Source: Kribbella solani
GTDB taxonomy: Bacteria; Actinomycetota; Actinomycetes; Propionibacteriales; Kribbellaceae
NCBI RefSeq assembly: GCF_014205295.1
Contig: NZ_JACHNF010000001.1
Coordinates: 3,968,001-4,032,000, forward strand
Direction of reading: 5' to 3'
Length of the DNA: 64,000 nt
How positions within the stretch are numbered: the first letter of the stretch is position 1; each line of letters opens with the position of its first letter. The notes beneath the pieces were generated by a model. It did not search any database, was not told the DNA's origin, and saw nothing but the letters and a program-made list of their open reading frames with translations. The translations under genes were made by a program, and so were the position numbers. This document shows, one piece after another, positions 60,108 to 63,441 of the stretch.

Positions 60108-60482
60108 TGGAGGTGGCGGGAATCGAACCCGCGTCCTTCGGCGTTGCTTCAAGGCTTCTCCGGGCGCAGTCTGAATGGCGCTTTTCTCAGCCCCAGCGTT
60201 TGTACAGACATCTCGCTGACAGGCTCAGTCACTGTAAATGTCCCGAACTAACCCCGTGACCGGGCTAGCACAGCAAGCTCTCTGAATGAGGCCAGGAACC
60301 GGGGCGAGAGCATCCCCGGGCTGACCACCTCTTTAAGTGCTCAGGCCGTCAGGCGGCGAGAGCGAGGTCAGTGCGCTTTGTATTGGCACTTATTGGTTTC
60401 CAGGGATCGTTTACGAGATAACCCTGGATCCTCGGCCCGCTTCCCTTGGAACATACGTCCAAAGTCGAAACCGTTCACCCCC
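60108..60482 (-). ncRNA. ssrA: Transfer-messenger RNA (ssrA)
   Basis: Rescues stalled ribosomes by trans-translation. Acceptor stem GGGGGTG (5-prime end 60482) pairs with CACCTCC ending at 60109, with A 60108 as discriminator; T-arm GCGGGTTCGATTCCCGC. The tag frame runs 60387-60349: resume codon GCC then ANTKRTDLALAA and stop, a typical actinomycete tag ending LALAA. The 3-prime CCA is not encoded (CCC follows), so it must be added. SmpB is encoded 0.9 kb upstream. Confidence 0.96.
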
Positions 60483-61240: not shown

Positions 61241-61315
61241 GGGTTCTCCACCGTTGTTGTGGGTTCTCCACCCGCACAAGAGTGGAGAACCCACAACACA
61301 AGTGGATATCCCACT
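61241..61315. repeat. Nested palindrome, copy 2 of 2
   Basis: Inner arms GTTGTGGGTTCTCCAC (61256-61271) and GTGGAGAACCCACAAC (61282-61297) are a perfect 16-bp stem with a 10-nt loop (CCGCACAAGA). Outer arms GGTTCTCCAC (61242-61251) and GTGGATATCC (61302-61311) pair at 8 of 10 positions. Closely similar to 42184-42257. Lies between the DUF1707 start and the smpB stop. Confidence 0.8.
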
Positions 61316-61338: not shown

Positions 61339-61812
61339 TCAGTGGCGGTTTCGGTCGGAGAGGGCTCGTTGGGCTTCTCGGTTGGCTTGGCGTTCGGCCA
61401 GGGCGTGGCGTTTGTCGTAGTCCTTCTTGCCGCGGCCGGTGGCCAGTTCGACCTTGGCGTAGCCGTCCTTGAAGTACAGGGACAGCGGGATCAGCGAGAC
61501 ACCCTGCGCCTCGACTGCGCGGATGAGTTTCTGCACCTCGTCCTTGTGCAGCAGCAGCTTCCGGGTACGCCGTGGCTCGTGGTTGGTCCAGGTCCCGTGT
61601 TTGTACTCGGGGATGTGCATGCCCTGCAGCCAGAGCTCGTTCCCGCGGACCGCAGCGAACGCGTCGACGAGGGAGGCCCGGCCTTGCCGCAGGGACTTGA
61701 CCTCGGTCCCGGTCAGCACCAGCCCGGCCTCCACCACGTCCTCGATGTGGTAGTCGTGTCGCGCCTTACGGTTCTGCGCGATCGGCTTGTCCCGGCCGGT
61801 CTGTTTCACCAT
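61339..61812 (-). CDS. smpB: SsrA-binding protein SmpB
   Basis: RNA-binding cofactor that delivers tmRNA to stalled ribosomes; 157 residues. Conserved blocks: [112 protein letters not shown] and the disordered C-terminal tail ALSDRNRH. Minus strand, following the M23 peptidase gene and preceding ssrA, an arrangement typical of actinobacteria (ftsEX-peptidase-smpB-ssrA). Confidence 0.98.
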
Positions 61813-61834
61813 CCGACCAGTATCGCAGGTAGCC

Positions 61835-61999
61835 AGCGGTCGTCGCCTCCATTTCCTTCAGCACCAGCGGCGTCCAGGTGGGTGCATCGCAAGGCGGAAG
61901 GCGAGCCTCGATGCGGTGTTCATCGTGGCTCGCCTTCCAACGCGGCGAGGTGCCCGCCTGGGCGTCGCTGGTGCGAAGGAAATGGAGGCGGCGACCGCT
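61835..61999. repeat. 165-bp near-perfect hairpin between M23 gene and smpB
   Basis: Left arm begins AGCGGTCGTCGCCTCCATTT (61835) and right arm, read in reverse complement from 61999, begins AGCGGTCGCCGCCTCCATTT. The arms match almost fully for ~52 bp, have a small internal loop near TCGC, then pair again over GGAAGGCGAGCC and CGATG, closing on a 7-nt loop CGGTGTT (61914-61920). All six simple substitutions are C-to-T on the plus strand, leaving G-U pairs in a plus-strand RNA. It abuts the M23 stop codon. Confidence 0.9.
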
Positions 62000-63441
62000 T
62001 AGAGCCACCCCATCGGATTAACGACGTTGCCGTCCTTGTAGACCATGAAGTGGAGGTGGCAGCCGGTCGAGTAGCCGGTGGTGCCGGACCAGGCGATGAT
62101 TTCGCCCTTGCGTACGCGCTCGCCGACCCGGGCCTTGTACTTGGACAGGTGGTTGTACACCGTGGTGATCGACGACCCGCTCATCACGCCGTGTGAAATG
62201 AACAACCGGTTCCCGTAACCGCCGTTGAAGTACTTGTCGGTCACGACCCCGTCGGCCGCGGCACGGACCGGCGTACCGCAGGGTGCGCGGAAGTCGGTGC
62301 CGTCGTGCAGCTTCCAGTAGTGCAGTACGGGGTGGAAGCGCATCCCGTACGGCGACGTGATGTAACTGCTGACCGGATACCCCAGCCGCCCGCCACCGTT
62401 CGACACCGGGTCCGGGACGTGCCGCGGCGGCCGGTTCTCCTTGCGCGCCTTCTCGGCCTCGGCCTTCTGGGCAGCCGCCTTCCGACGCGCCGCGGCCGCC
62501 TTCTCCGCCTTCGCGCGGGCGGCCAGCATCGCCTCGACCCGGCCCCGCTCCCGCAGCAGTGAGTTGTACTGCGCGAGCTCGCTGTTCTTCTCCTTCTCGG
62601 CCGCCTTGTACGCGACCAGCTTCACCTTCGCCACCGTCGCCGCCTCGGCCTTGTCGGCCGCGACCTGCTTGGTCAGCTCGGTGACCTTGCGTACCGTCGC
62701 CGCCGAGGCCGCCCGCGCGGCCGCGGCGTCCTTCTCCGCGGCGGCGACCTTGACCCGCCTGCTGGCGAGCTGCGCCTGGGCGTTGTTCAGGTTCGTGATC
62801 GCGTTGCTCTGGATGCCGAACACGTTCCGCTGGACCTGCATACCGGTGGCGATGTCGGCCGGCGCGGCGCCGCGGAGCGCGATCGACAACCCGACCAGCG
62901 TGTTCTGCTGCTGGTACGCCGAGCGGACCGCGCGACCGGCGACCGCGCGCTTCTCGGCGATCTGCTTCTCACCGGCCTCGACGTCGGCGATCGCGGTCTT
63001 CAGCGCCGCCTCGGCGGCCGCGAGCTTGCCCGCGGCAACGGCATCGGCGGCCTTCGCGGCGGCCAGCTGACCCTGCGCGGCGGCATACCGGGCCTGGACG
63101 GCCTGGTACTTCGTCTCGGCCTGGTTGTACGCGGCAACGGATTTGCCGAGCTGGTCGGACGCGTCGTCGAGATCAGCCTTCTGCTGGTTGATCTTCGAGT
63201 CGAGTTGCTTCTTCTTGGCGGCTGGATCCGGCGGTTTCGCTTCCGCGAACGGCGCGGACGGAACCGCCGCCAGAACTCCGGCGGACAGGGACAGGACAAG
63301 GCAGCAGGCGGCAACCACCGTTGGCCGGCCCTGCGGTCGCAAACGTGATCGCGGGTACGGCGCGGCGGGGGTACCGGTGCTGTCGTCTCGCTGGATGCGC
63401 TCCCGCTCAGGCGGGTTCGCACCGGGGAAGTGCGGGACCAC
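61999..63441 (-). CDS. Secreted M23 peptidase with coiled-coil (EnvC/RipA-like wall hydrolase)
   Basis: Cell-wall endopeptidase or hydrolase activator of 480 residues starting at GTG 63441. Signal/TM segment VVAACCLVLSLSAGVLAAVP, then long coiled coil (AKKKQLDSKINQQKADLDDASDQL; ASRRVKVAAAEKDAAAARA; KAEKAAAARRKAAAQKAEAEKARKE) and a C-terminal LytM domain: MRFHPVLHYWKLHDGTDFRAPCGTPVRAAADGVV, NRLFISHGVMSG and the HLHF motif (GCHLHFMVYKDG) with zinc ligands. Downstream of ftsX, so it is probably the partner activated by the FtsEX complex at division. Confidence 0.93.
   Translation of the reverse strand: MVPHFPGANPPERERIQRDDSTGTPAAPYPRSRLRPQGRPTVVAACCLVLSLSAGVLAAVPSAPFAEAKPPDPAAKKKQLDSKINQQKADLDDASDQLGKSVAAYNQAETKYQAVQARYAAAQGQLAAAKAADAVAAGKLAAAEAALKTAIADVEAGEKQIAEKRAVAGRAVRSAYQQQNTLVGLSIALRGAAPADIATGMQVQRNVFGIQSNAITNLNNAQAQLASRRVKVAAAEKDAAAARAASAATVRKVTELTKQVAADKAEAATVAKVKLVAYKAAEKEKNSELAQYNSLLRERGRVEAMLAARAKAEKAAAARRKAAAQKAEAEKARKENRPPRHVPDPVSNGGGRLGYPVSSYITSPYGMRFHPVLHYWKLHDGTDFRAPCGTPVRAAADGVVTDKYFNGGYGNRLFISHGVMSGSSITTVYNHLSKYKARVGERVRKGEIIAWSGTTGYSTGCHLHFMVYKDGNVVNPMGWL

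Follow-up and report, generated by a model that had tools for sequence, protein, structure and literature searches.

The long hairpin that lies between smpB and an M23 peptidase-family gene in Kribbella solani is one copy of a dispersed repeat, i.e., a non-autonomous, MITE-like mobile palindrome that forms a new family, and not the single-locus feature described in an earlier note on this DNA. Two properties of this family are unusual: its terminal arms are free in sequence but self-complementary, and its copies show a near-absolute polarity relative to replication. The interest of the family lies in this polarity and in its missing engine, while the smpB-adjacent copy is probably incidental.

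Within the window (i.e., the whole stretch of 64,000 nucleotides that was analysed and along which all positions are counted), this copy and its surroundings comprise the following parts:

61835 to 61999, plus strand: whole palindromic element of 165 nt, of which the plus strand is the G.U-proficient strand (from folding and family relatives)
61835 to 61913, plus strand: left arm
61914 to 61920, plus strand: loop of 7 nt
61921 to 61999, plus strand: right arm
61835 to 61859, plus strand: outer left arm, varying in sequence among copies and complementary to 61975–61999
61975 to 61999, plus strand: outer right arm, partner of 61835–61859
61861 to 61973, plus strand: conserved core, scoring 116.6 bits on the plus and 63 bits on the minus strand with covariance model R1
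61883 to 61884, plus strand: 5′ half of a tandem U.G/G.U wobble, with partner 61951–61952, conserved in the family
61833 to 61836, plus strand: left junction CCAG, likely a decayed copy of the CTAG target (assigned from the family target)
61998 to 62002, plus strand: right junction CTTAG, which overlaps 61999–62001, the complement of the M23 stop codon, and is likewise assigned from the family target
61339 to 61812, minus strand: flanking gene smpB, with its gene start at 61812
61999 to 63441, minus strand: flanking M23 peptidase-family gene, the complement of its stop codon being 61999–62001

Folded as RNA, the plus strand of the element formed one hairpin of 72 pairs with a 7-nt loop (–148.2 kcal/mol, z-score of –17.3), a stability matched by none of 200 shuffles, while the minus strand reached –124.5 kcal/mol; with DNA parameters the corresponding values were –85.6 and –75.0 kcal/mol. 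The extent and loop that the earlier note had given were thereby confirmed, as was the placement between the M23 stop codon (the complement of which is met by the right end of the hairpin) and smpB. The one-sidedness of the mismatches held as well, in that all six wobble pairs (i.e., 61843–61991, 61870–61965, 61873–61962, 61879–61956, 61883–61952, and 61884–61951) read as G.T or T.G, i.e., as G.U in RNA, on the plus strand, and the other unpaired positions of the hairpin are small internal loops and bulges rather than simple mismatches.

Such a very stable fold beside two conserved genes could speak for a locally functional RNA or an attenuator of the M23-smpB transcript, an explanation that we nevertheless consider very improbable. 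The mRNA of both genes would carry the opposite strand, i.e., the one with A.C mismatches, and neither strand showed a U-run terminator at the hairpin by the criterion of a GC stem followed by a U-run. Moreover, the hairpin is missing from most sister gaps, and the other copies of the family adjoin unrelated genes. No promoter was found at the hairpin, and no Rfam family scored above its gathering threshold at the elements, where only sub-threshold matches to miRNA hairpins were obtained. It is likely that this copy serves no dedicated purpose for either smpB or the M23 gene. Elsewhere around smpB, an Rfam match to tmRNA (ssrA) was found near the gene (about 60320–60482 of the window, minus strand, 60.1 bits; the match is cut by the end of locus L001), and a second inverted repeat of 31 nt with 84% complementarity (61241–61312) lies between smpB and the next gene; the latter holds direct repeats of GTGGGTTCTCCAC and by eye appears unrelated to the hairpin family.

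Related palindromes were indeed present elsewhere in the window genome (G000) when they were sought as the earlier note had proposed, and each of them folds into a long hairpin that shares the core but not the outer arms. The genome holds at least 23 copies, this number being found with covariance model R1, built from 18 diverse cores, and in each of the 23 one strand scored clearly above the other. Matches to the model were present in all 38 Kribbella genomes searched, where full copies measure approximately 161–165 nt, are palindromic over nearly their whole length, and are non-coding. Clear relatives with the same core were also located on plasmids of Streptomyces, Embleya, and Streptantibioticus, while neither viral contigs nor phage records yielded a match. 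No published description of the family was found in the open-access literature, which is weak evidence of absence.

That these copies arose by insertion is apparent from their empty sites. The smpB-M23 gap measures only 26–27 nt and is hairpin-free in 24 sister genomes, so that the conserved neighbourhood claimed in the earlier note holds for the genes but not for the hairpin. The same gap contains a full element in G035, an internally deleted remnant in G005, and a 40-nt stub in G026. A tree of smpB plus the M23 gene separates the carrier G000 widely from the carriers G035/G005, and relatives with an empty site lie in between; the site was either hit repeatedly or received an old insertion that was often lost. 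For several other copies, the joined flanks match contiguously in many Kribbella genomes, the clearest empty-site junctions being CCT^AGGATGG and CCT^A(C/G)AG. Similarly, an occupied Streptomyces site reads CGCG-CTAG-TGCTG...CAGCA-CTAG-GCGC, i.e., a 165-nt stretch with CTAG at both bounds, and its empty counterpart in a related Streptomyces plasmid reads CGCG-CTAG-GCGC. Of 64 Kribbella copies, 28 had CTAG at an end, whereas none of 62 control positions did. Insertion is thus precise at CTAG or TA, with a duplicated target of 2 or 4 bp (both fit, as the ends read AG..CT), and is mostly intergenic, often against a stop codon. Since the target copies at the window site have decayed to CCAG on the left and CTTAG on the right, the target assignment there is drawn from the family. 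The idea that the arms derive from the target was rejected at this site, as the empty gaps contain neither arm. CTAG itself is strongly depleted in the window (18 occurrences versus 79 expected from dinucleotide shuffles). In addition, the copies at the 4.73-Mb locus of the window genome are common to G020, G007, and G015, and a CTAG site (L004) in G019 received a second insertion, from another subfamily, in the same orientation.

IS5/IS427-type elements use targets of the CTAG/TA type. Both target and size of the family match those of classic MITEs (PMC2229807), and the copies could thus be ordinary MITEs, moved in double-stranded form by a DDE transposase with a CTAG/TA target (IS5/IS427-like, or an IS630-like enzyme since lost), of which those with the hairpin on the lagging-strand template were later cut or deleted by an SbcCD-type activity. 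We regard this as unlikely, albeit as the main alternative. It is hard to reconcile a transposase that binds ends sequence-specifically with the terminal arms of the family. Across 41 distinct copies (i.e., with outer arms differing at more than 5 of 20 positions), these outer arms were 94% Watson-Crick paired, versus 33% when partners were shuffled; boundary calling over-extends some copies of the family, and the arm statistics derive only from the 64 copies that measure 160–172 nt.

Arm pairing is moreover kept in place. Among the 39 pairs of the core, 21 showed changes on both sides, which was above 500 of 500 shuffles and all slid controls (in an alignment fitted to the model, into which a few copies are entered on both strands). 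When copies at the same site were compared across species, 43 double Watson-Crick changes were counted, 15 of them transversion pairs, in 13 comparisons from approximately eight loci that are not all independent. However, template switching in quasipalindromes is reported to generate compensatory changes of several bases at once (PMC8794818) and, in Escherichia coli, to be induced more readily on the leading strand (PMC6357072). Since template-switch correction can keep pairing just as selection can, covariation alone is no proof of a functional RNA.

The wobble pairs point in the same direction throughout the family. On the plus strand of the element, the outer arms contained 26 G.T versus 4 A.C pairs, and orthologous copies displayed 21 changes from Watson-Crick to G.T versus 2 to A.C. 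At the tandem U.G/G.U, one pair was a wobble in all 18 model sequences and the second in 15 of them. This asymmetry fits a requirement for folding of the element's plus strand, and of the selection for a plus-strand RNA suggested in the earlier note, it is the favouring of one strand for folding that stands (G.T far exceeding A.C family-wide, together with the compensatory changes). The second suggestion made there, i.e., strand-specific cytosine deamination of an extruded cruciform that would have created the G.T mismatches after insertion, agrees with all six simple mismatches reading G.T on the plus strand, but at most of these positions the wobble is shared by many, or even all, copies from other species, and Watson-Crick double changes in the outer arms far exceed mismatches. 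Because the asymmetry is inherited and family-wide, local deamination is removed as its main cause; it is refuted for the conserved pairs, a refutation that does not extend to private mismatches such as 61843–61991, and as an overall explanation we deem it extremely improbable.

With the origin taken as dnaA and the terminus as the opposite point (some chromosome lengths being rounded), the plus, G.U-proficient strand was on the leading-strand template in 168 of 173 copies (97%) from 12 genomes, among the matches listed. The corresponding binomial p-value is approximately 1e-43, although species have some insertions in common, so that their counts are not wholly independent. A perfect palindrome is directionless, yet nearly all of these near-palindromes share a fork-relative direction. 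Per genome, the same orientation was observed for 23 of 23 copies in G000 and, among the matches listed, for 25 of 25 in G029. Flanking genes, scored in three genomes, were tandem against the element in 24 cases, tandem with it in 8, divergent in 18, and convergent in 7. Since they point both ways, gene direction alone is no explanation of the polarity but a weaker correlate. Strand composition near copies displayed no strong skew. On the plasmids, the strand positions of copies look mixed; the polarity count covers chromosomal copies, for which an origin could be placed.

Polarity of this kind could in principle be left behind by the later loss of conventionally inserted MITEs, as both strands differ by approximately 10 kcal/mol as DNA, and the foldable strands of integron attC sites likewise lie mostly on the leading-strand template (PMC8946536). 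Nevertheless, the copies in G029 with identical model scores, which are probably recent, all obey the orientation, which speaks against loss after insertion and leans towards an insertion bias without proving it.

Enzymes that might move such hairpins were sought within the scope of Y1/RAYT, IS630 DDE_3, and reverse transcriptase. A Y1 HUH transposase (PF01797, Y1_Tnp) was detected in 1 of 38 Kribbella genomes, which was not G000. The IS630 DDE_3 transposase was present in 2 of 7 genomes and absent from G000 and four other many-copy genomes, which counts against an IS630-like mover of conventional MITEs and led us to reject an IS630-mobilised, RUP-like repeat. No recurrent or shared mobility gene was found beside copies, and loci encoding IS630, Y1, or reverse transcriptase had no element copies nearby, except for one core-pattern match in L311. 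Neither arms outside elements nor a partner transposon with matching ends gave an informative hit in 1.58 Mb of DNA from the analysed loci; the element termini themselves vary.

Reverse transcriptase (PF00078, RVT_1) was encoded in 7 of 38 genomes. SINE-like retrotransposition, in which a plus-strand hairpin RNA would be copied into cDNA by reverse transcriptase and joined to the exposed lagging-strand template, would account for the plus-strand G.U pairs and for the minus (cDNA) strand being on the lagging-strand template, and the conserved tandem U.G/G.U suits an RNA. We still hold it to be improbable, given that 31 of 38 genomes lack RVT_1, among them the many-copy genomes G000, G029, G031, and G010, and that no promoter was found at the hairpin. 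A derivative of a retroelement or group II intron was likewise rejected, as the window genome has no reverse transcriptase.

Since Y1, IS630 DDE_3, and reverse transcriptase genes were not found in the window genome, we favour a folded single strand that moves or survives at the fork, served by an enzyme in trans. More specifically, and with modest confidence, we consider the family a non-autonomous palindrome that inserts at CTAG/TA and of which the mobile or selected form would be the folded G.U-proficient single strand; this form, and its recognition through core and shape and not through arm sequence, are what we infer within that explanation. The folded strand would move or survive at the fork in a replication-coupled manner, with arm pairing upheld by the requirement for shape and, in all likelihood, by the correction of palindromes already in place through template switching, while the mobilising enzyme would act in trans. 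More tentatively, and we would not count on it, the family may represent a class of actinobacterial mobile hairpins not described before, which would be replication-coupled as a folded single strand, be recognised by shape with arms left free, and use an enzyme other than Y1, IS630, or reverse transcriptase.

Several known systems share part of these features. ERIC, Correia/NEMIS, RUP, and YPAL (PMC2229807, PMC10969869) are similarly mostly intergenic inverted repeats of 100–200 bp for which no protein is needed, with long-stem transcripts and, in several of them, TA-type termini with target duplication. In contrast, the Kribbella element is palindromic over its full length, GC-rich, and near-absolute in its replication orientation, and its terminal arms are unconserved in sequence yet complementary; for RUP, moreover, the proposed mover is the IS630 transposase that is absent from the window genome. 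IS200/IS605 and REP elements also involve hairpins, with single-strand, replication-linked mobility shown for the former and proposed for the latter (PMC3116915, PMC6006769), and REPs resemble the Kribbella family in that their sequence is species-specific and their shape shared. However, REP hairpins are short compared to an element of approximately 165 nt with a CTAG/TA target, and Y1 elements such as IS200/IS605 act on the lagging-strand template (PMC6006769), opposite to the foldable strand here. Assignment to REP/REPIN-RAYT or IS200/IS605 was rejected on this leading-template position of the foldable strand and on the absence of Y1 from 37 of 38 genomes. Integron attC sites (PMC8946536) share recognition by a folded strand and its structural imperfections instead of by arm sequence, as well as the leading-template bias of the foldable strand in chromosomal integrons, but the Kribbella copies are dispersed singly, without cassettes, and use another target. 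Quasipalindrome evolution by template switching (PMC8794818, PMC6357072) resembles the multibase compensatory changes and double transversions seen in Kribbella copies, but it is a mutation process and no mobile family, and leaves insertion and orientation unexplained.

With its strand asymmetry, the family is a natural system of many copies in which replication-coupled insertion can be told apart from the instability of hairpins on the lagging strand, and orthologous long hairpins with in-place arm co-evolution offer a direct test of template-switch maintenance versus selection. Once identified, the mobiliser would either be a transposition engine of a new kind or reveal how an engine already known copes with termini of any sequence.

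Outside Kribbella, the Streptomyces copies (L371, L372, and other plasmid loci) keep the core GGTGCATCGCAAGGCGGAG / CAACGCGGCGAGGTGCC with a different apical loop, and one large linear Streptomyces plasmid has up to nine element places. The public name Streptomyces sp. SID13031 (L147) looks wrong, as the record has a 680,661-nt contig as in the Kribbella genome G027. A small number of further genera within the order also gave weak model matches, among which genome G042, from another family, contained eight (best 6.7e-9), which suggests a diverged branch of the repeat in that family.
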